Source: Phyllobacterium chamaecytisi (GTDB lineage Bacteria; Pseudomonadota; Alphaproteobacteria; Rhizobiales; Rhizobiaceae). Taken from it: DNA of 64,000 nucleotides. Position numbers and translations under genes: made by a program. The DNA lies in assembly GCF_020164455.1 (NCBI RefSeq), contig NZ_JAIQWW010000003.1, positions 186,001 to 250,000 of the forward strand, written 5' to 3'. The notes under the pieces were generated by a model, which did not search any database, was not told where the DNA came from, and saw only the letters and a program-made list of their open reading frames with translations. Below are positions 7,187 to 50,521 of the stretch, one piece after another (the first letter of the stretch is position 1; each line of letters begins with the position of its first letter).

Positions 7187-8692
7187 GTGCACGATTTTGA
7201 TCTGGACCATGAGCACGAGGATTTGTCGGAATCCGATCAGCTGGCGATTTCGCGGTCGATCTGGGAACAGGAAAACCTCGAGCTTCTCACTGTTGGTATC
7301 GATATCGGCAGCTCCACTTCGCACCTGCTGTTTGCCCGTATCGTTCTGCAGCGGGAGAAAGATGATCTGTCGAGCCGGTTTGTGGTTGTCGAACGCACTG
7401 TTCTGTGGCGCTCGCCCATTCTCCTCACGCCCTTCCTGCCGGACGGTACGATCGACGCCCATGAGCTTCGCCATTTCTTCCACCATTGCTATCACGATGC
7501 CGGCTACAAGCGGGCCGATGTCGATTCAGGCGCGGTCATTCTCACAGGCGAGGCCATAAAACGAACGAACGCCCGCGCGATCGACGAAATATTCGCGAAT
7601 GAATCAGGCAAATTCGTTTGCGCAACCGCTGGCCACAAACTTGAATCCATCCTGGCTGCACACGGCTCCGGGGCGACAGCCCTTTCGAGAAAACGCGATG
7701 CTTGCGGGCTTCACGTTGATATCGGAGGCGGCACGACCAAACTTGCGCTTATCGACAAGGGGGAAATCCTCAGTGTTGCCGCTTTTGCGGTCGGCGGACG
7801 TTTGCTGGCGAGGGATCAGCATGGAAAATGGTCTCGCATCGACGAGTCGGCAAGGATCGTCGCGCAATCGCTCGGTATCGAAATTTCCGGTGACGAATTG
7901 CCCGACGAAGCGTCCCGCCAAGCCATCACAAAGCGGCTCGCTGCGCTCGCGGTCGATCAGATTTTGGGACGTCCGCTTGATGATCTCGGCGAGAAATTGC
8001 TGCTGACCGACGCCTTGGAGAGAGCTGTCGCGCCGACGTACATCACGTTCTCGGGCGGGGTTTCCGAATATATCTTTGGCTATGAAACCGAGGATCACGG
8101 AGACATCGCCCGAGCTCTGGCACAGGAGATCGTGGCGCAGCTAGGTCCGCGCATCGACGTACCGGTTATCGATGCAGGACAACGCATCAGGGCAACGGTC
8201 ATTGGAGCATCGCAGTTTACCGTTCAGGTCAGCGGCAAGACGCTCTATATGAGCGGCATCAAGGCATTGCCTGCTCATAATATTCCCGTCGTTCACCTCG
8301 GGACCAGTTTGCCCGAAGTCATCGATGCCGATGAGATTGCACGGATTTTCAAGGCAAGTGCAGAACGTCAGGACCGGGATCTGTCACTACCGTTGGCTCT
8401 GGCATTCTCGTGGAGCGGATTGCCGGACTATCCGCGGCTTCTGGCAATGGCCACAGCCATCAAGTCGGTAGCGGCGCCGGCAGGACAGCGCCAGGAACTG
8501 CTGGTGCTGGTGATCGACGGCGATGTCGGGCAAACGATCGGCCGCATTCTCGAGAAAGAACTCGACCTTGGATCAAATCTGGTGTCCATCGACGGCGTGC
8601 AGCTCAAGGATCTGGATTTCGTTGATCTCGGCGAATTCATCGACCCGCCAGGTGTGATTCCGGTCGTCATCAAGTCGCTGCTCTTCTCATGA
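7187..8692 (+). CDS. eutA: EutA-like ASKHA protein (ethanolamine ammonia-lyase reactivase family)
   Basis: A 501-aa protein resembling EutA over its length. EutA is the ATP-dependent chaperone that swaps damaged cobalamin out of ethanolamine ammonia-lyase. ASKHA nucleotide motifs are visible: VGIDIGSSTSH (36-46, phosphate 1), LHVDIGGGTTK (175-185, phosphate 2), and a TFSGGVSEY adenosine-type motif later. An acidic extension of about 30 residues precedes the first motif. The GTG start at 7187 is set by AGGAG at 7176-7180. EutB and EutC are absent from the window, so its client is unknown. Assignment to the family is strong; the biochemical role here is open. Confidence 0.82.
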   Translation: MHDFDLDHEHEDLSESDQLAISRSIWEQENLELLTVGIDIGSSTSHLLFARIVLQREKDDLSSRFVVVERTVLWRSPILLTPFLPDGTIDAHELRHFFHHCYHDAGYKRADVDSGAVILTGEAIKRTNARAIDEIFANESGKFVCATAGHKLESILAAHGSGATALSRKRDACGLHVDIGGGTTKLALIDKGEILSVAAFAVGGRLLARDQHGKWSRIDESARIVAQSLGIEISGDELPDEASRQAITKRLAALAVDQILGRPLDDLGEKLLLTDALERAVAPTYITFSGGVSEYIFGYETEDHGDIARALAQEIVAQLGPRIDVPVIDAGQRIRATVIGASQFTVQVSGKTLYMSGIKALPAHNIPVVHLGTSLPEVIDADEIARIFKASAERQDRDLSLPLALAFSWSGLPDYPRLLAMATAIKSVAAPAGQRQELLVLVIDGDVGQTIGRILEKELDLGSNLVSIDGVQLKDLDFVDLGEFIDPPGVIPVVIKSLLFS

Positions 8693-14659: not shown

Positions 14660-15940
14660 TTAACGCATCATGGTCAGAGCGGTTGCAAAGAAGTCCTTGC
14701 CTCCAAAGTTTCCCGATTTGAGAGCCATGAGCATATCTCCCTGCGCACTCCCCACTGTGCGCAGGACTGGCACGCCCGGTGCAATTTCGGGCCCGATCAG
14801 GAATGCCGGAATGGCAAGCCGATCCACCACTGCGCCTGAGGTTTCGCCGCCTGCGACCACCAGACGCCGTACGCCCCTTGCCACGAGTTCGGCTGCGATA
14901 GTCGACGTTGCGGTCTCGATCGCATGGCCCGATGCCTCACGTCCGTATCGCGACTGGAGCCAGGAAACCCTTTCGGGTGACGCACTTGCCGCGATAGCGA
15001 CGGGACCAGCTGAAATGCGCTCGCCAGCCCAGCTAAGAGCCGCGGCTATTTCGTCTGAACCTGCAATCAGCTTTTCGCTGTCGAGCTTCAGAACGGGCAT
15101 GGACCGCTCGGCAACTTCCAGCTGCTCGAGCGTCGCCCGGGAGCAGCTGCCGGCAACAATGGCGGCCAGTCCACCGACGGGACGCATGGCACCATCTGTC
15201 GTTCCCGTCTGCAATGGCACCTGACCGGATTTTACAAGAGCGCGGGCAAGTCCAAGCCCCAGACCGGATGCTCCGGTTGAGATCCCCATTTCGACCGCGA
15301 CATCACCGAGTGTTTCGAGATCGCGTTCAACGATTGCGTCGGCGATTGCTGTGGTGAAGCCCTGCATGCGTAAGCTGTCGAGACGCGCCTTCACAGCCGC
15401 CGGCCCGCCTGCGACCGTCGTCAGATCGACGAGGCCCACGGTCCCCTGCGACTGCCTTGCCATGACGCGTACCAGATTGGCATCGTGCATCGGATTGAGA
15501 GGATGGTCTTTCAGGGGGCTTTCGTTCAGCGGTTGTCCGTTAACGAAGAGATGGCCGAAATAGACCGTGCGCCCCGTCTCCGGAAAGGCCGACGTTACAA
15601 GAACTATGCCCTCTCCTGCAGTATCGCTAAGTGCTTCAGTGACCGGACCGATATTGCCGGCATCGGTGGAGTCGAATGTCGAGCAGATCTTGTAAAGGAC
15701 GTGCTTTGCGCCTCTCCTTTGCAGCCATTGATAGGCCGCTGATGCAGATGACACGGCGTCCGCAGCGGCCACCGAGCGGATCTTCAGCGCGACCACGACT
15801 GCATCGACGTCGGGCAGGTCCAACGCGGCGGCCGGTATGCCCACGGTCTGGATCGTACGCAGGCCATTTTTCGTAAGCGTATTGGCGAGATCGGACGCCC
15901 CTGTGTAATCATCGGCTATTGATCCAAGCAAGATGGCCAT
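14660..15940 (-). CDS. otnK: 3-oxo-tetronate 4-kinase (four-carbon acid sugar kinase)
   Basis: A 426-aa four-carbon acid sugar kinase (DUF1537/OtnK family). It phosphorylates 3-oxo-tetronate at O4 with ATP. Seen: the N-terminal GSIADDYTGASDLANTL motif for substrate binding, a TSAFPETGRTVYFGHLFVNG segment, and a C-terminal nucleotide part with VVAGGETSGAV. Ribosome site GGAGG overlaps the otnI stop, and ATG 15940 lies four bases beyond it, so otnI-otnK are coupled. Together with ltnD, otnI and otnC in the divergent unit it completes a tetronate-to-DHAP route (established for this gene set in other Proteobacteria). Confidence 0.92.
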   Translation of the reverse strand: MAILLGSIADDYTGASDLANTLTKNGLRTIQTVGIPAAALDLPDVDAVVVALKIRSVAAADAVSSASAAYQWLQRRGAKHVLYKICSTFDSTDAGNIGPVTEALSDTAGEGIVLVTSAFPETGRTVYFGHLFVNGQPLNESPLKDHPLNPMHDANLVRVMARQSQGTVGLVDLTTVAGGPAAVKARLDSLRMQGFTTAIADAIVERDLETLGDVAVEMGISTGASGLGLGLARALVKSGQVPLQTGTTDGAMRPVGGLAAIVAGSCSRATLEQLEVAERSMPVLKLDSEKLIAGSDEIAAALSWAGERISAGPVAIAASASPERVSWLQSRYGREASGHAIETATSTIAAELVARGVRRLVVAGGETSGAVVDRLAIPAFLIGPEIAPGVPVLRTVGSAQGDMLMALKSGNFGGKDFFATALTMMR

Positions 15941-15943
15941 CGT

Positions 15944-16720
15944 CTACCTCCGTCTAAAGGCTTCGAACCAGTTCAAGCCATCCAGGGTTTTGGCTCTCGG
16001 GATGTATTCGCACCCGATGAACCCGCTATAGCCAAGCCGGTCGATCTCACCGAACAGATAGGGATAGTTCAGCTCTTCACCATCTGGCTCGTGGCGCGAG
16101 GGGACGCTGGCAATCTGGATATGTCCGACGATCGGCATGAGGCGGCGCAAGGCCATGGTCACATCGCCGTGCATGATCTGACGATGATAGATATCGAACT
16201 GCAGTTTCAGGTTCGGCAGGCCGAGTTCTGTAATGAGCTCTTCGGCTGTGCTGAAATCATTGAGGTAATATCCTGGCATGTTTCGCCCGTTGATCGGCTC
16301 GAGCAACAGGTCGATGCCAGCTTCGGCAAACCGGCCGGCTGTGTAGGTGACCGAGCTCCGGTAACAGGATGCAGCCGTCTCGTCACGGGAATCCGCAATG
16401 CCGGCCATCAGGTGCAGCCGCTTTACGCCGGTCGCCGATGCGTATTCGAGCGCCCGTTTCACATCCGACTTCAAGGCATCGAACCGTCCGGGCAGCGCGG
16501 CTATCCCGCGCTCACCCGCGGCCCAGTCACCCGGAGGGAGGTTGAACAGTGCTTGCTGAAGATTGTTGCGGACGAGCCTCTCGGAGATCGCTTCTGGCGG
16601 AAACTCATAGGGAAAGAGATATTCGACTGCGGTAAAACCGGCATCGGCAGCAGCGGCGAAGCGATCGAGGAACGGCCACTCGTTAAACATCATCGACAGG
16701 TTGGCGGCAAATACCGGCAT
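15944..16720 (-). CDS. otnI: 2-oxo-tetronate isomerase (hydroxypyruvate isomerase family)
   Basis: A 258-aa TIM-barrel isomerase of the hydroxypyruvate isomerase/AP-endonuclease-2 fold. In the tetronate pathway it interconverts 2-oxo- and 3-oxo-tetronate. Family landmarks: NLSMMFNEWPFLDRFAAA at the N-terminus, LLLEPINGRN (catalytic Glu), LQFDIYHRQIMHGD (metal Asp and His), and FIGCEYIPR (second catalytic Glu). The start is ATG 16720 with AAGGA seven bases upstream. The ltnD stop lies within 18 bp, indicating one operon. A hydroxypyruvate isomerase activity cannot be excluded by sequence, but the neighbourhood favours OtnI. Confidence 0.9.
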   Translation of the reverse strand: MPVFAANLSMMFNEWPFLDRFAAAADAGFTAVEYLFPYEFPPEAISERLVRNNLQQALFNLPPGDWAAGERGIAALPGRFDALKSDVKRALEYASATGVKRLHLMAGIADSRDETAASCYRSSVTYTAGRFAEAGIDLLLEPINGRNMPGYYLNDFSTAEELITELGLPNLKLQFDIYHRQIMHGDVTMALRRLMPIVGHIQIASVPSRHEPDGEELNYPYLFGEIDRLGYSGFIGCEYIPRAKTLDGLNWFEAFRRR

Positions 16721-16734
16721 CAACGCTTTCCTTC

Positions 16735-17670
16735 TCAACCCTTGGGTTTCGCATCCGGCAGCCTTGCACCGGACAGGCTGGCATATATCCGTGCAAGAGA
16801 CGCGTCATCATCGTGACCCATGCCGGCACCGGAGGCAGCCAGATACATCTGCAAAGCCGCAGCTACGAGCGGCACCGGATAACGCTCTGCCCGTGCCATA
16901 TCCTGGACGATGCCAAGATCCTTGACGAAAATCTCGACCGTGCTGAGGGGTGTATAGTCTCCCGCCAGCACGTGCGGTACCCGGTTTTCGAACATCCAGG
17001 AGTTGCCGGCGGAAGCGGTAATTACCTCATATACCTTGTCGAGATCGAGCCCCTGTTTGGCAGCGAAGGTTATTGCCTCGCAGGCGGCGGCGATGTGGAC
17101 GCCGGCTAGCAGCTGGTTGACCATCTTGAAGGCCGCACCGGCTCCGGCTGCATCGCCGAGTTCGTAGACCTTGCCTGCCATGGCATCAAGAGCCGTACGG
17201 GCAAGCTCGAAGGCCTGTCTGGAGCCTGACGCCATGATCGTCAGTTCGCCGCTCGCCGCCTTTGCCGCGCCTCCGGATATCGGGGCGTCCAGATAATGAA
17301 GGCCGAGAGCCTCGACTCGTTGCGCAAGATCCCGTGCGACAGCAGGATCCATCGTTGCGGACGAGATGAACACAGCGCCGGGTTTCATTGTAGCGGCGAT
17401 GCCGTCTGGCCCGAACAGTATGGCCTCGGTTTGCGCACCGTTTACGACCACGGACACAACGATATCGGCACCTGTGGCGGCGCCGGCGGCTGTGGTCGCG
17501 CCACGCCCGCCATCCGCTATGAACCGATCGACGGCCGCGGGTGCAATGTCACAGCCGATCACGTGAATACCGGCACGGTGCATGGATTTGGCCATCCCCA
17601 TCCCCATTGAACCAAGTCCGATTACCGCCGCCACAACGGCATTTTGGCGGACCGCATTGGGCTCTGACAT
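16735..17670 (-). CDS. ltnD: L-threonate/D-erythronate-type 2-dehydrogenase
   Basis: A 311-aa beta-hydroxyacid dehydrogenase, first gene of the minus-strand tetronate operon. It oxidises the C2 hydroxyl of L-threonate (or a related tetronate) with NAD. Rossmann motif GLGSMG is at 18-23, the substrate loop DAPISGG at 128-134, and the catalytic lysine is K182 in FKMVNQ. GGAGG with an 8-base gap favours ATG 17670; an ATG two codons upstream is too close to it. It is expressed toward the left from the operator pair at 17751-17787. L-threonate versus D-erythronate cannot be separated by reading. Confidence 0.88.
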   Translation of the reverse strand: MSEPNAVRQNAVVAAVIGLGSMGMGMAKSMHRAGIHVIGCDIAPAAVDRFIADGGRGATTAAGAATGADIVVSVVVNGAQTEAILFGPDGIAATMKPGAVFISSATMDPAVARDLAQRVEALGLHYLDAPISGGAAKAASGELTIMASGSRQAFELARTALDAMAGKVYELGDAAGAGAAFKMVNQLLAGVHIAAACEAITFAAKQGLDLDKVYEVITASAGNSWMFENRVPHVLAGDYTPLSTVEIFVKDLGIVQDMARAERYPVPLVAAALQMYLAASGAGMGHDDDASLARIYASLSGARLPDAKPKG

Positions 17671-17750
17671 AAACATATCCTCCGGTCTGGGGTTATCCGA
17701 GTGGCGCACCACGGGATCCAACGAACGCTCCTGAAGTGATAAACCACGGA

Positions 17751-17764
17751 TGGCAGCGCTGCCA
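17751..17764. promoter_or_regulatory. LacI-family operator 1 (perfect 14-bp palindrome)
   Basis: TGGCAGCGCTGCCA is a perfect palindrome with the central CG step typical of LacI-family operators. It lies 81 bp upstream of ltnD in the divergent intergenic region, and the adjacent gene encodes a LacI-family regulator, its probable ligand. Confidence 0.8.
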
Positions 17765-17773
17765 ACCATAAAA

Positions 17774-17860: not shown

Positions 17861-18862
17861 ATGGGTACCTCCAGAAATCAGACGGCAGTAACGCTTGCGC
17901 AGGTCGCGGAGGCGGCCGGCGTTGGAGAAAGCACGGTTTCGCGCGTCTTAAGAAACCATGGCTCTTATTCCGGCAAGACAAGGGATCGTGTCATGACAGC
18001 CGTTGAGCGGCTCGGTTATGTGCCGAACCGCATCGCCGGTACGCTGGCCTCGACCGGGTCTCGCCTCGTCGCCTTTGTCATACCGTCACTGTCCAATATC
18101 GTTTTTGCCGATGTTTTGAGAGGCGCGGGCGCAACGCTTGAGGAACATCAATTTCAGGCGGTTTTTGCTGTCACTGATTATGATCCCGCAAGGGAGGAGG
18201 CGCTGGTTGCTTCTATGCTCGCCTGGCGGCCTGCGGCCGTGATGCTGGCAGGCTACGAACATACCGAGCGCACGTTCAAAATGCTGCGCGCCGCCAATTG
18301 CCGGGTGGTGGAAATGCTCGATGTGGATGGCACCGCGCTGGATCTTGCCGTTGGCTTCTCGAACCGCGCCGCCGGCCGTGCGAGCGCCGAGTTCCTGTTG
18401 AAGCGCGGTTATCGCCGGATAGGCTATGTCGGCCATGATCTCGACCGCGATACCCGTGCCGGCAAACGCTATTCGAGCTTCTGCGAGACATTGAGTGCGA
18501 ATGGCGTGCCGCTTGCAGATCGGGAAATTTATCGGGAGGCTTCGTCAGTCGAAAGAGGGCGTTTGGGTCTCGATCTTCTGCTGGCCAGAACCCCTGACCT
18601 CGACGCCGTCTACTTTTCCAATGATGATATGGCGCTCGGTGGCTATTTCCACTGTTTGGCGCTAGGAATTGTGATCCCGTCCCAACTGGCGATTTTTGGC
18701 TATAATGGCCTTGATCTCGGCCAGGTTATGCCGCAAGCCCTGTCGACGATACGCACGCCGCGCGTCGCCACCGGGCAGTTGGCGGCAAAGCTCATCGCGG
18801 ACAACGCACCATCACAGGTTATCGATCTCGGTTTTGAGTTGATCGAAGGTGCAACTGCCTGA
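17861..18862 (+). CDS. LacI/GntR-type transcriptional regulator of the tetronate genes
   Basis: A 333-aa LacI-family regulator. The N-terminal HTH TLAQVAEAAGVGESTVSRVL (11-30) is followed by a YVPNRIAGTLA hinge helix (about 53-63) and a periplasmic-binding-like sensor domain with the usual SNIVFADVLRG and YFSNDDMALG segments. It is divergent from ltnD-otnI-otnK and 15 bp upstream of otnC, and the two palindromes before it fit its HTH class. The likely effector is a tetronate or pathway intermediate (inference). Confidence 0.92.
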   Translation: MGTSRNQTAVTLAQVAEAAGVGESTVSRVLRNHGSYSGKTRDRVMTAVERLGYVPNRIAGTLASTGSRLVAFVIPSLSNIVFADVLRGAGATLEEHQFQAVFAVTDYDPAREEALVASMLAWRPAAVMLAGYEHTERTFKMLRAANCRVVEMLDVDGTALDLAVGFSNRAAGRASAEFLLKRGYRRIGYVGHDLDRDTRAGKRYSSFCETLSANGVPLADREIYREASSVERGRLGLDLLLARTPDLDAVYFSNDDMALGGYFHCLALGIVIPSQLAIFGYNGLDLGQVMPQALSTIRTPRVATGQLAAKLIADNAPSQVIDLGFELIEGATA

Positions 18863-18877
18863 CACCGGAGGATTCGA

Positions 18878-19546
18878 ATGTCTGATGCACGCCTGCGTGA
18901 GGAAATCTGCCGATACGGGCGTTCGCTGTTCGAGCGGGGGCTGACACCCGGTTCGTCGGGCAATATATCGTTGCGGCTTGATGATGGCGGCTGGCTGGTG
19001 ACACCGACGAATGCCTCGCTCGGCTTTCTGGACCCGGCCCGGCTTTCTCGTCTCGATGCTGCAGGAGCCTTGGTTTCAGGCGATAAGCCGACCAAGGAAA
19101 TTCCGCTGCACAGCGCCCTTTACGAGACTCGCGGAAGTGCGCGCGCGGTCGTCCATCTTCACTCGACGCACGCCGTTGCCCTGACAATGCTGCCGGAGAT
19201 CGATCCACGCGCCGCACTGCCGCCAATGACACCCTATTATCTCATGCGCGCCGGCCAGACCGCCCTCGTGCCCTATTACCGGCCCGGCGATCCTGCAGTT
19301 GCCGACGCGATCCGTGGGCTTGCGGGCAAATTTTCCTCCGTGCTTCTGGCCAATCATGGCCCCGTTGTGGCTGGCGACAGTCTGGAAGCCGCCGTTTTTG
19401 CCACCGAAGAGCTGGAAGAGACAGCGAAGCTTTATCTCCTCCTGCGCAACCTCAATCCACGTTACCTCAGTCCTGCCCAGGTCGCCGATCTGGTCACGAC
19501 TTTCGGCCTTGATCTCCCCGTTCATGACGAGCACGATCACAAGTGA
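18878..19546 (+). CDS. otnC: 3-oxo-tetronate 4-phosphate decarboxylase (class II aldolase family)
   Basis: A 222-aa class II aldolase/adducin family protein. In this pathway it decarboxylates 3-oxo-tetronate 4-phosphate to dihydroxyacetone phosphate. Zinc-site residues are seen in VVHLHSTHA (two His) and LLANHGPVVAG (third His), and the catalytic Glu in KEIPLHSALYE. The conserved GNIS element is near residue 28. GGAGG precedes ATG 18878, 15 bp after the regulator, so the two are co-transcribed. Assignment to OtnC rather than a fuculose-phosphate aldolase rests on the adjacent ltnD, otnI and otnK. Confidence 0.9.
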   Translation: MSDARLREEICRYGRSLFERGLTPGSSGNISLRLDDGGWLVTPTNASLGFLDPARLSRLDAAGALVSGDKPTKEIPLHSALYETRGSARAVVHLHSTHAVALTMLPEIDPRAALPPMTPYYLMRAGQTALVPYYRPGDPAVADAIRGLAGKFSSVLLANHGPVVAGDSLEAAVFATEELEETAKLYLLLRNLNPRYLSPAQVADLVTTFGLDLPVHDEHDHK

Positions 19547-19626
19547 GTGCGACATCCGGCTGGAACTTCGGGTAAGCCGCCGCGTTCCTGTCACGATCAT
19601 CGTAGAAATTTGTGCAAGGGGCAGGC

Positions 19627-20697
19627 ATGACGAAACACCAGGACAACTTGAAACAGGATAATCCTGTGCCAGTTGCGCACGGCGCCCCTTCATTGCCGTC
19701 GGTAACGGTCGACGGCTACAATTTGAAGCTGCGCGACAAGGACGGTTTCATTGGCGACAAGGCCAGTAAATCGGCATTCCAGCAGAAACTAGACGATTGG
19801 CGCAAACGTATCCGAAACGGCGGCGATGATCCGCTTGGGAATACGCCGACAAAGGATCTGTCGAAGAAGCAGATCGATGCGTTGGTGCAGGGTAAGGACA
19901 AGGAAGCGGCCGCCCTCATTCTCGGCGCTGTCGACGATTTCGCCGGTGAGCTCGCCCAGGTGCTTGCCCGTTTCCTCAAGGAAAAGAGCTGGAAGGGCAC
20001 TGAACGCGTCGTCGTCGGCGGGGGCATGAGAGAAAGCGCTTTCGGGGAACTGGCCATTGCCCGGGCGATGGTGCTCTTGAAATCAGATGGCTTGAAAATC
20101 GAGCTTTTGCCGATCGCGCATCATCCGGATGAAGCCGGACTTATCGGTGCAGTACAACTCATGCCCGCCTGGATGCTTGAGGGTCACGATTCGCTGATCG
20201 CCGTTGACATCGGCGGCACTAACATTCGCGCTGGTGTTGTCGAAACACGCCGCAAGGACAAAGCCGATCTATCGAAAGCCAGAGTTTGGAAATCGGAACT
20301 TTGGCGCCACGCCGATGATGAGCCCAACCGCACCACAACCGTAGAGCACATCGTAAGCGTGCTGGAACGCCTCGTCGCCAAAGCGCAAAAGGCGGGTCTT
20401 ATGCCGGCGCCGGTCATTGGAATTGCTTGTCCAGGTACGATCCTGCCGGACGGTTCCATCGCGAATGGCGGGCAAAATCTTCCCGGCGGGAATTGGGAGA
20501 GCAAGAATTTCAATCTTCCGGCGGCTCTCGTTGAAGCCATTCCGAAAATCGGCGACCATCCCACCTTTGTCATCATGCACAATGATGCGGTGGTGCAGGG
20601 GCTCTCACAGGTTCCGTTCATGCGAGACGTTGAGCGTTGGGGCGTCGTGACCATAGGCACAGGCCTCGGAAATGCCCGTTTTACCAACAAGGAGTGA
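19627..20697 (+). CDS. ROK-family sugar kinase-like protein with permuted motif order
   Basis: A 356-aa ROK/glucokinase-like protein whose motifs are in an unusual order. Residues 92-175 read like the C-terminal end of a normal ROK protein: a helix (about 94-117), adenosine motif VVVGGGM (128-134) and terminal AGLIGA (170-175). Only then comes the usual N-terminal ATP motif DIGGTNIRAG (194-203), followed by GIACPG (265-270), the catalytic pair N319-D320, and GTGLGN (344-349), after which the protein stops. The ROK zinc motif CxCGxxGCxE is missing. I infer circular permutation. ATG 19627 follows AGGGG; it lies 80 bp after otnC and may be co-transcribed. Confidence 0.75.
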   Translation: MTKHQDNLKQDNPVPVAHGAPSLPSVTVDGYNLKLRDKDGFIGDKASKSAFQQKLDDWRKRIRNGGDDPLGNTPTKDLSKKQIDALVQGKDKEAAALILGAVDDFAGELAQVLARFLKEKSWKGTERVVVGGGMRESAFGELAIARAMVLLKSDGLKIELLPIAHHPDEAGLIGAVQLMPAWMLEGHDSLIAVDIGGTNIRAGVVETRRKDKADLSKARVWKSELWRHADDEPNRTTTVEHIVSVLERLVAKAQKAGLMPAPVIGIACPGTILPDGSIANGGQNLPGGNWESKNFNLPAALVEAIPKIGDHPTFVIMHNDAVVQGLSQVPFMRDVERWGVVTIGTGLGNARFTNKE

Positions 20698-20779: not shown

Positions 20780-20896
20780 ACTGTGCGGGCTGTCTGCTAC
20801 TGCGCCCTCACACATCCATTGACCTATACAGCTTGCTGAATTTGTCGGCTGAACGACCGATTGCGGTGCACCGGTCATACTAAAAAGGAGAAAATC

Positions 20897-21415
20897 ATGA
20901 AAAAGACTCTTGCGATGGCACTTACGGCAGCGTCGCTGACTCTTGCCGGCACGATGGCTGCCAATGCGGCAGACACCATCCGGACCTATCAGGAACCGGA
21001 TCTGCACAGTGGTGTGAAGATCGGGTACCTCGATTGCACTATTGGCGGCGGCATTGGTTATGTGCTTGGCTCGGCCAAGGAGATTGAGTGCGATTTCCGC
21101 TCGAGCCTCAGCGGCGAACGTTCGGACCACTACAGCGGCGCAATCAAGAAGCTCGGCGTTGACGTTGGCTTCACCACACGCAGCCGGCTTATCTGGGCCG
21201 TGTTCGCACCGACAGCCGGCTACCATCATGGCTCGCTCGGCGGCATCTATCGCGGCGCTACGGCGGAAGCGACAGTTGGCGCTGGTATCGGCACCAATGT
21301 GCTGTTTGGCGGCACGGCAGGCTCGATCCATCTTCAGGCCATCAGTGTGACGGGTCAGATCGGTCTTAATCTTGCTGCCACCGGCACGTCGATGACACTC
21401 GCCTCGGCGAACTGA
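20897..21415 (+). CDS. DUF992 secreted protein
   Basis: A 172-aa protein of the DUF992 family, common in Rhizobiales and of unknown function. A signal peptide ends near residue 24 (ANA|AD). The mature chain has the conserved start VKIGYLDCTIGGGIGYVLGSAKEIECDF with two cysteines likely forming a disulfide, and glycine-rich beta-type repeats. AAGGAG before ATG 20897 sets the start. It is probably periplasmic. It stands alone, with about 118 bp separating it from the ROK region and a hairpin following it. Confidence 0.85.
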   Translation: MKKTLAMALTAASLTLAGTMAANAADTIRTYQEPDLHSGVKIGYLDCTIGGGIGYVLGSAKEIECDFRSSLSGERSDHYSGAIKKLGVDVGFTTRSRLIWAVFAPTAGYHHGSLGGIYRGATAEATVGAGIGTNVLFGGTAGSIHLQAISVTGQIGLNLAATGTSMTLASAN

Positions 21416-21431
21416 CGGCATTGTTTTTATA

Positions 21432-21459
21432 GCTCCCTTTCGCCCCGGCGGAAGGGAGC
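21432..21459. terminator. Stem-loop downstream of the DUF992 gene
   Basis: GCTCCCTT (21432-21439) pairs with AAGGGAGC (21452-21459) around a GC-rich loop, 17 nt after the DUF992 stop. The T-rich stretch lies before the stem on the plus strand rather than after it, so it is not a textbook intrinsic terminator. It still marks the likely 3' end of the transcript. Confidence 0.4.
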
Positions 21460-21533
21460 AAGTCTCTAGGCGCGCGGAACGCCGATAGGTGAAGGCGTCA
21501 TGTTCACGATTTTGATAATCCGGGGGGATTCTG

Positions 21534-22133
21534 GTGAAAACAGTCGTCCAACTTTCGTTGCTGGCTGCCTGTTGCGCCTTGTTACCCGAAATTGCACATG
21601 CCGAGTGGCAAGCAGTCGAAAAAGTAGAGAGCTACGCGGTTTCAGGAAAATCCGGCGCTGAGCTTTACGCATCGATCGGGGAGAGGGGGCCAAGAGCCGG
21701 TGACAACGGGAGCGCCATCGCGCATACGAATTTCCGCCTGACATGGTCGAGGAAATACGAGAACCAGGGCAATGCCTGCACGCTCGTCTCCGCAAAGCCC
21801 AAACTTGTAATCACCTACACTATACCGAAGCCGGCGGGAAAGCTGCCGGACGCTGTCGCCAGCAACTGGGAGACCTTTATCGCCGGGATCCGCCGTCATG
21901 AAGCCGTGCACGGCGATATGATCCGCGACATGGTAAAATCAATCGAGACTGCAACGGTCGGCTTGTCCGTGCCCGATGATCCCAAATGTACCAAGATCAG
22001 AGCGGAGATGACGAAGCGCCTTTCCGAACTGTCTCAAACCCAGCGGCAGCGCAGCCGTGATTTTGATCGAACTGAACTCAGGGAAGGCGGAAATATCCAC
22101 CAGCTCATCCTCGCATTGGTGAACGGGACGTAG
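21534..22133 (+). CDS. DUF922-family secreted zinc-protease-like protein
   Basis: A 199-aa protein of the DUF922 family. A signal peptide ends near residue 23 (AHA|EW). The mature protein carries the zinc-metalloprotease motif HExxH as HEAVH at 122-126, and two cysteines (82 and about 152). DUF922 proteins are predicted periplasmic Zn proteases of unknown substrate. The start is GTG 21534 after a G-rich stretch; an ATG start is not available nearby. The last 30 residues are charged and helical. Confidence 0.8.
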   Translation: MKTVVQLSLLAACCALLPEIAHAEWQAVEKVESYAVSGKSGAELYASIGERGPRAGDNGSAIAHTNFRLTWSRKYENQGNACTLVSAKPKLVITYTIPKPAGKLPDAVASNWETFIAGIRRHEAVHGDMIRDMVKSIETATVGLSVPDDPKCTKIRAEMTKRLSELSQTQRQRSRDFDRTELREGGNIHQLILALVNGT

Positions 22134-40711: not shown

Positions 40712-40836
40712 GTCGTCCTCCTGGTTGGCCACAGCTACCCCTTCGACAGCTTTGCAGCTTCCGCAAAAAGTAGCTCGCTCACTTGGTTTACAGGGAAGTA
40801 ACGATGGGTCGGACGAATGGTTCCTTGCCCGATAAA

Positions 40837-49294: not shown

Positions 49295-50521
49295 TTGAGT
49301 ATTCGAGTATCGGAGCGTTCCGGCACGGGAGGATCCAGGCTGACGCTTCATCACGGTACCAATCAAAGCGGCATGCGCGATCACAATGAGCGTGTGGTGC
49401 TTTCGCTTCTGCGCCAGCATGGCAGCCTGGCAAAGACGGCTATCGCCCGGATGACCGGACTTTCGGCGCAGACGAGCTCGATCATCATGCGCATGCTTGA
49501 AGCCGACGAGCTCCTGTCGCGAGAGGAGCCCCTGCGCGGACGCATCGGCCAACCATTGATCCCGATGTCGCTCAACCCGGAAGGCGCATTTTTCTTCGGA
49601 CTGAAGATCGGACGCCGCAGTGCCGACCTGGTGCTGATCGATTTTATCGGCCGCATTCGTTCCATGCTGCATATGCCTTACGATTATCCAACGCCGGAAC
49701 CGATCTTCAGCTTCGCGGCCACGGGCATGACGCAGATGATGGAGGCGCTGACGCCAAAGCAGCGCGAACGGGTCGCGGGAATTGGCATCGCCGCGCCATT
49801 CGAACTGTGGAAATGGGCCGATACGGTGGGCGCACCGCAGGCGGTCATGGACGAATGGCGTGACTGCGATATTCGCGCAAAGGTTGCGGCGCTTTGTTCC
49901 TTCCCCGTTTATCTGCAGAACGACATGACCGCTGCCTGCGGGGCTGAACTTGTGTTCGGTCAGACCAAGGACATCAATGATTTCGTCTATTTCTACATCG
50001 GCTCCTTTATCGGTGGCGGCATCGTTATCAACGGCGGCCTTTATGCGGGCCGCAGTGGCAATGCCGGTGCGCTGGGCTCGATGCCGGTGCCGGGACCGGA
50101 CGGTACTGCGCGGCAGCTGATCGACATCGCGTCGATCACTGCGCTGGAACGCGATGTTACCGAGCTTGGCCGGGATCCCTCGCCGCTCTGGGCTTCTCCT
50201 GAAGACTGGGGCGAGATGGGCGTAGAGCTTGACGCATGGATCGAGCGCGCCGGCAAAGCGATCGCGCAGGCGGTTATCGCGTCGTCCTCGGTGGTGGACT
50301 TCGAGGCGGCCATCATCGATGGCTGGATGCCGTCAAGCGTACGGGCGCGGATTGTCGACGCGGTGCGCAGACATGTTGAGACATTCGATCTGGAAGGCAT
50401 TCAATTGCCGGCGATCTTCGAGGGAACGGTCGGCATTCACGCGAGAGCACTTGGCGCCGCCAGCCTGCCGCTGTCGGATCGGTATCTTCTGGGACAGAAG
50501 CTTTTCAGGAAGGGTAGTTAA
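49295..50521 (+). CDS. ROK-family transcriptional repressor of the sugar operon
   Basis: A 408-aa ROK repressor. The N-terminal winged HTH (about 27-85: NERVVLSLLRQHGSLAKTAIARMTGLSAQTSSIIMRML) is followed by a ROK sugar-sensing domain with GIGIAAPFELW, NDMTAACGAE and GSFIGGGIVINGGLYAGRSGNAGALGSMPV. The start is probably TTG 49295, with GGAGG nine bases upstream; no ATG has comparable support. It is divergent from frcB and likely represses both arms through the 49206-49243 dyad. Confidence 0.88.
   Translation: MSIRVSERSGTGGSRLTLHHGTNQSGMRDHNERVVLSLLRQHGSLAKTAIARMTGLSAQTSSIIMRMLEADELLSREEPLRGRIGQPLIPMSLNPEGAFFFGLKIGRRSADLVLIDFIGRIRSMLHMPYDYPTPEPIFSFAATGMTQMMEALTPKQRERVAGIGIAAPFELWKWADTVGAPQAVMDEWRDCDIRAKVAALCSFPVYLQNDMTAACGAELVFGQTKDINDFVYFYIGSFIGGGIVINGGLYAGRSGNAGALGSMPVPGPDGTARQLIDIASITALERDVTELGRDPSPLWASPEDWGEMGVELDAWIERAGKAIAQAVIASSSVVDFEAAIIDGWMPSSVRARIVDAVRRHVETFDLEGIQLPAIFEGTVGIHARALGAASLPLSDRYLLGQKLFRKGS

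Follow-up and report, generated by a model that had tools for sequence, protein, structure and literature searches.

Does a gene in the 64,000-nucleotide stretch of Phyllobacterium chamaecytisi DNA analysed here (the window) encode a sugar kinase of the ROK family whose two halves have changed places, and, if so, what would such an enzyme do? The frame at 19627-20697 (+) is open throughout and encodes 356 residues. A mechanically called ORF starts at a GTG 15 bases 5' of ATG 19627; the ATG is a plausible start codon because AAGGGG lies immediately 5' of it. Pfam ROK (PF00480) matches the protein at 38.3 bits (curated cut-off 22.9; E 1.4e-9), with profile positions 2-141 aligned to residues 191-354, and Pfam shows no DNA-binding domain in it. 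Rhizobial copies are annotated as 'ROK family protein' or 'hypothetical protein'. The gene and its segments are as follows.

19627-20697 (+): coding sequence (356 codons and a stop) of the permuted ROK-type kinase, with the Pfam ROK match
19627-19677 (+): N-terminal tail, residues 1-17; pLDDT below 50 over residues 1-13
19678-20184 (+): residues 18-186, corresponding to ROK residue ~144 to the C-terminus (rotation tests, fragment model)
19744-19758 (+): GFIGD, residues 40-44, near-invariant, with D44 in 50 of 51 sequences
20008-20028 (+): VVVGGGM, residues 128-134, its GGG invariant in 51 of 51
20134-20151 (+): AGLIGA, residues 170-175, the canonical C-terminal ROK signature, here mid-chain
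20185-20694 (+): residues 187-356, corresponding to ROK residues 1 to ~145 (Pfam, NCBIfam, hhalign, structural match)
20206-20220 (+): DIGGT, residues 194-198, phosphate/metal motif (51-sequence family alignment)
20476-20499 (+): NLPGGNWE, residues 284-291, small-domain family signature, conserved in the family alignment
20581-20586 (+): N319-D320, with D320 the putative catalytic base; HND in 51 of 51, role by homology to NagK D105
20656-20673 (+): GTGLGN, residues 344-349, second phosphate motif, invariant in the family alignment

A sequence-only reading had proposed that the part that is C-terminal in normal ROK proteins comes first here, and the motifs that it cited (VVVGGGM, AGLIGA, DIGGTNIRAG at 194-203, N319-D320 and GTGLGN) were all found at the residues it gave. 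Already with existing models, the part that ends a ROK protein matches ahead of the part that begins it: NCBIfam NanK NF047821 aligns residues 108-178 at profile positions 216-285 of 288, and PRK05082 aligns residues 191-349 at positions 4-135 of 291, each at E ~3e-5 and far below its curated cut-off. For a quantitative comparison, a 51-row family alignment was scored by hhalign against a profile built from 36 canonical ROKs, of which 6 come from the same genome and 30 from fetched loci, the circle being opened at every sixth residue. The natural order scored 63.9 and covered canonical columns 4-138. The score peaked at 94.7-94.9 when the chain was started at residue 183-189; rotation at residue 189 gave 94.9, with 287 positions aligned and canonical columns 4-300 of 301 covered. 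When columns 15-186 were shuffled (50 trials), the rotated score averaged 63.5 (sd 1.1, max 66.2), compared with 94.5 unshuffled, and reversing the same columns also gave 63.5. Taken alone, block 15-186 matched canonical columns 203-300 through its residues 76-180 (P 4.8e-7). Block 15-100 alone gave no match to the canonical profile (probability 1%), so residues 15-75 are placed by structure only, and sequence alone supports the permutation from residue 76 upward. Rotation brought no gain in a HMMER search of the PDB: the best E was 3.5e-5 in the natural order, with part of that match on an expression tag; the rotated order reached 0.0017, with a shallower alignment (7 vs 51 sequences). The Pfam ROK score rose on rotation only from 38.3 to 40.3 bits, with one half still aligned.

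AlphaFold2 modelled the whole chain with pLDDT 89.2 and pTM 0.88. In VIA-align, the second half of this model superposes on the first part of ROK proteins: residues 186-355 on 2yhw (Z 13.1, rmsd 1.9, 147 residues), 188-355 on residues 0-145 of 3r8e, an entry titled only 'putative sugar kinase' (Z 10.2), and 188-356 on residues 1-145 of 6q26 (Z 10.0). A structural model in which residues 92-175 fail to fill the C-terminal ROK positions had been named beforehand as a result that would refute the permutation. The model of residues 19-187 alone (pLDDT 82.4, the last ~20 residues below 50) matches the C-terminal part of ROK-type kinases: residues 24-175 (model residues 6-157) fall on 3r8e 144-295 (Z 8.8, rmsd 3.6, 140 residues), the fragment falls on 6q26 144-283 (Z 7.8, rmsd 3.7, 125 residues), and the 11 best VIA rows are all ROK-type proteins. 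The Z of 8.8 is moderate, barely above the tool's warning level, and a Foldseek search with the fragment model gave nothing at E 0.001, the best match being 3vov, a ROK hexokinase, at E 0.03. CoaX, actin, Hsp70 and MreB were considered as closer kin and rejected; we take their sequential alignments over both lobes to reflect ASKHA pseudo-symmetry.

In the models, the two halves tile the ROK fold and meet at ROK residue 144-145. Strands 337-343 and 347-354 precede the new C-terminus, which lies one strand (347-354) past GTGLGN, and strand 26-31 follows the new N-terminus; this order puts the break within the large domain, after the GTGxG strands and ahead of the stretch where canonical members have ExGH and the zinc loop. 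The displaced C-terminal part had been put at residues 92-175, with a helix at about 94-117. The model has the helix at 92-118, and residues 92-175 do fill ROK positions, but the segment proved larger, starting at residue ~18: strand 26-31 and helices 48-65 and 80-88 fill ROK positions as well, and residues 18-186 cover the remaining large domain and the terminal helix. Residues 1-13, at least, are taken as disordered from their low model confidence. Judged by sequence and model together, the permutation is complete and real, the circular order proposed for this ROK kinase being confirmed by profile rotation and by two structural models.

An assembly artefact or a one-off event is excluded by the 56 loci of the gene family in genome contigs and by 206 matching plasmid records, mainly from Rhizobium (111) and Sinorhizobium (79). 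Counting the window's own genome, and considering only the best-scoring candidates per genome (5 in the set of 398, 6 in that of 297 and 10 in that of 200), the family is present in 15 of 149 near relatives, in 26 of 297 genomes of the window's own taxonomic family and in 22 of 398 Pseudomonadota genomes. The weakest of these 22 phylum matches has an E of 4.9e-119 over nearly the full profile, and 5 of the 22 come from other classes; since the family thus occurs in at least two proteobacterial classes, the permutation is probably ancient. The gene family is conserved in root-nodule and soil bacteria. Pfam ROK matches all 51 members at E 0.001 or better. The 51 aligned proteins span 346-381 residues, and no homologue with an additional normal ROK C-terminus, which had been named as evidence that would speak against a permutation, was seen. 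When 200 genomes were searched with a profile rotated to the ROK-like order (7 sequences, threshold E 1e-10), 18 half-matches were obtained in 9 genomes; the second profile half always lay upstream of the first, with the halves abutting, and no unpermuted protein was found at E 1e-10 among the best 10 candidates per genome. The halves are thus swapped in 9 of 9 positive genomes, and the suggested subfamily with the same order is a conserved one, found in Rhizobiales and other Pseudomonadota. A phage or viral origin was rejected: there was no phage match at E 0.01, and viral contigs yielded 15 pattern matches and no confirmed relative. A Bradyrhizobium barranii plasmid (L076:6001-6394) has a partial match only, to residues 217-352 in two pieces at 37% identity, and this is perhaps a decayed copy.

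All 51 family members are identical at D194, G196, G197, N284, W290, E291, H318, N319, D320 and T345, at P286 and G288 of NLPGGNWE, and at GGG 131-133, which we take to be the adenosine-site motif; residue 198 is T in 47 of them and S in 4. Four signatures are given for ROK proteins in the available part of PMC5458393: DxGxT, a catalytic aspartate, the ExGH sugar contact and the zinc motif CxCGxxGCx(E/D). The first is present as DIGGT, mid-chain instead of N-terminal, and the strictly conserved catalytic Asp signature is present as D320 in HND (51 of 51). ExGH is not found in the 356-aa protein and is present in 33 of the 36 canonical ROKs; a looser [EH]xGH occurs in a single member of the 51, at residue 291 of the L067 protein, an unrelated place. 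The Cys zinc motif, already reported missing by the sequence-only reading, is indeed absent from the protein and from every family member (0/51 vs 29/36 canonical ROKs). Seven of the 36 canonical ROKs have no zinc motif, and three of these (L104, L107 and L108, canonical-order ROKs of the same genome) have no ExGH either, so motif loss is not peculiar to the permuted family; the missing zinc motif is a feature separate from the permutation. L108 lies within the window itself, as a canonical-order ROK match of 74 bits at 49598-50467 (+).

In place of the lost motifs, hhalign aligns D44 of GFIGD with the acidic position of GCx(E/D) and brings HGA (residues 18-20) close to ExGH; whether D44 and HGA would pair in this way at the sugar site is uncertain, and we put the assignment forward with low confidence. 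In Plesiomonas NagK, D6, T10, T132, N104 and D105 are needed for activity or binding (PMC10031466, text available in part), and we pair these by motif with D194, T198, T345, N319 and D320, respectively. The likeliest reading of this residue pattern is that the protein would be active as a kinase, its sugar site having changed.

We analyzed the surroundings of the gene for signs of its role. In the window and in close Phyllobacterium relatives, the gene follows an otn-type operon; its surroundings in the window comprise:

14660-15940 (-): OtnK-like (domains; named after the annotated P. zundukense neighbourhood)
15944-16738 (-): OtnI-like (domains; named after the same neighbourhood)
16735-17769 (-): L-threonate dehydrogenase-like (domains; named after the same neighbourhood)
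17861-18862 (+): LacI regulator (domains; named after the same neighbourhood)
18878-19546 (+): class II aldolase (domains), which we assume to be OtnC-like
19562-19586 (+): GGAAC-N16-CGTT, an EcfG/RpoE2-type promoter motif lying 65 bp 5' of the ATG
20861-22133 (+): DUF992 and DUF922 genes

A role in the otn (threonate-type) operon was considered and rejected: a promoter motif of its own precedes the gene, and in locus L020 no otn marker was found in the 6-kb flanks. The DUF992 and DUF922 genes lie downstream of the gene in four Phyllobacterium loci (L017-L020), and in L020 they stay with it though otn markers were not found; in a fifth Phyllobacterium locus (L057) they are not beside the gene. 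Farther away in the window, a 501-aa ORF at 7187-8692 (+) has two glycine-rich D-I-G-type motifs and presumably resembles EutA.

Lying between otnC and the permuted gene, the promoter motif gives the latter its own candidate promoter. It agrees with the consensus for R. etli sigma EcfG1 described in the accessible portion of PMC3892343. In the window alone, two strict matches against 0.44 expected are not significant; the second is at 40800-40824 (-). Across the family, the strict motif (15-19 spacer) was found in 50 of 65 upstream regions, compared with a mean of 0.36 and a maximum of 3 in 200 shuffled sets. In 45 of 56 loci it lies upstream at a distance of 100 bp or less, with spacers of 16 (25 loci) and 17 (20 loci) only, and its density is 0.80 per 100 bases upstream vs 0.0021 elsewhere in the same loci. 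The 15 upstream regions without the strict motif comprise all 10 Shinella loci, L011 and L013-L016. Among the 20 loci L140-L159, five of which come from other classes, three have it (L140, L142 and L152). The loci are related, so these promoter counts and the neighbour counts below are inflated and do not represent independent events. By its upstream sequence, the gene appears to be stress-induced, a candidate member of the general stress (EcfG/RpoE2) regulon. In the portions available of the RpoE2/EcfG regulon papers, we found no ROK gene traceable to the permuted gene.

A second recurrent neighbour is otsB, whose adjacency was scored by marker search with a half-length match required. It is divergent from the gene in 37 of 56 loci, its match ending 107-323 bp from the aligned gene start, and lies 1.8-1.9 kb away in 2; at half length it was not found beside the gene in the other 17, one of which (L026) has an otsB match cut off at the far edge of the locus. 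Three otsB copies tested are Pfam Trehalose_PPase; in L028 the ORF adjoining otsB belongs to Glyco_transf_20, as does OtsA. The gene also stands next to otsB in annotated records of R. johnstonii pRL10, R. acidisoli and Shinella. The S. meliloti gene has beside it an M42 peptidase whose name refers to the osmoprotectant system NAGGN, and in the window's genome otsB is on another contig. Since L140, from the window's own family, is the only one of loci L140-L159 with otsB, the trehalose link is suggestive and lineage-bound. In a Beijerinckiaceae MAG (locus L067), the ORF downstream of the gene has an alpha-amylase domain, and we assume that it resembles treY. As to otsB regulation, the parts of the literature accessible to us describe Ensifer aridi otsBA as RpoE2-mediated (PMC8877191) and R. 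etli otsB as induced by (p)ppGpp (PMC3188799).

Taken as a whole, these data are best explained, with good probability, by a permuted ROK-fold kinase that is active, has an altered sugar site and is linked to stress; its activity, substrate and stress role we infer from the computed order, residues, conservation and promoter motif. A natural, complete circular permutation would have joined the old N- and C-termini via a short linker at ~177-188 and opened new termini in a large-domain loop, between the GTGxG strands and the ExGH-bearing segment of normal ROKs; homology would put this opening near the sugar site. The permuted chain is still expected to form the two-lobed ROK shell, in which D194 and T198 would serve the metal and phosphates, T345 the phosphates and GGG the adenosine, with D320 as the base. 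As fold and active-site residues are retained, the reaction is most likely phosphate transfer from ATP to a sugar. The family-specific segments HGAxxLP (18-24), GFIGD (40-44) and NLPGGNWE (284-291) would replace ExGH and the zinc site, so the substrate is probably unlike those of known ROK kinases. In Rhizobiales that have the EcfG-type motif, the protein is probably produced as one component of the general stress response; our best guess at present is a function involving trehalose or another osmoprotectant. A more elaborate scenario, which we hold to be doubtful, is that an ancient, fixed permutation gave rise to a stress-induced sugar kinase family whose former ExGH region now forms a free N-terminus close to the active site, so that the disordered tail can gate or specify a substrate different from those of all known ROK kinases, possibly a sugar of the trehalose pathway or an osmoprotectant sugar, in partnership with OtsB.

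The permuted ROK fold could instead bind sugar and ATP as a stress sensor or as a regulator of trehalose enzymes, like a pseudokinase. Loss of the sugar-contacting ExGH, as in 3 of 36 canonical-order ROKs, would suit such a protein, as would the finding that no shared operon was seen in the more distant loci and the otsB gene that adjoins in 37 of 56. We nonetheless consider this unlikely: metal, phosphate and catalytic-base residues that are invariant in 51 sequences would be unusual for a dead kinase, and the absence of a DNA-binding domain in the Pfam search also argues against a regulator. It is considerably less probable still that the fold is completed by halves from two chains in a domain-swapped dimer; ROK kinases dimerise via the large domain (PMC5458393 and PMC10031466, as far as their text was available), and that domain is here built from both chain ends, but the single-chain model is confident (pTM 0.88). 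Finally, the protein might consist of only the N-terminal half of a ROK kinase, preceded by a helical domain of other origin in which the C-terminal motifs resemble those of ROK by chance. This would account for the best Pfam stretch being 191-354 on PF00480 while the other half scores weakly, but the explanation, already disfavoured, has next to no probability left given the match of block 15-186 alone to canonical ROK 203-300 (P 4.8e-7), the gain of 31 score units over the null when the blocks are joined in rotated order, and the fact that the fragment model has ROK-type proteins in all of its 11 top VIA rows.

With two of the four ROK signatures present (DxGxT and the catalytic Asp), and ExGH, the zinc motif and the canonical order all absent, the protein, which is homologous to ROK and would work like a ROK kinase, is better classed as a sister family in permuted order than as an ordinary member. 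That selection has kept a natural permutant across many genera suggests that a ROK chain tolerates new termini close to its sugar site with the catalytic core retained, and the permutant provides a natural test of the effect of the termini on lobe closure and specificity. The promoter motif makes the biological question testable as well, the gene being a stress-regulon candidate with a trehalose phosphatase gene as neighbour.

Searches of the open-licence PubMed Central literature turned up no report of a circularly permuted ROK or ASKHA kinase. In the accessible text of PMC1976428, 'circular permutation' and 'ROK family' occur unconnected, as do 'ROK family' and 'permuted' in that of PMC6200981 and PMC7701253. 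CIRPIN describes two RNase H-like domains related by circular permutation, and the words 'kinase' and 'ROK' were not found in the portion available (PMC12667903). The best single-sequence PDB match is the polyphosphate/ATP-glucomannokinase 1woq, at a weak E of 0.016; its structural match has Z 10.9 over 146 residues, but it has the canonical order, and the alignments cover only residues 187-356 of the permuted protein. The N-acetylmannosamine kinases (NanK) of Fusobacterium nucleatum (5nck) and Staphylococcus aureus (6q26/6q27) are among the structural and profile matches of both halves and differ in having the canonical order. The published structure of F. nucleatum NanK has no zinc motif and retains the other three ROK signatures, ExGH included (PMC5458393, in the part available). 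ROK kinases in general (PF00480: NanK, NagK, ROK glucokinase) share with the permuted family the two-lobed fold, according to the model, and the DxGGT, catalytic N-D, GTGxG, GGG and terminal AGLIGA signatures. In contrast, their halves stand in canonical order and ExGH and the Cys zinc motif are usual in them, whereas the permuted family is without these motifs and has NLPGGNWES, HGAxxLP and GFIGD as segments of its own.
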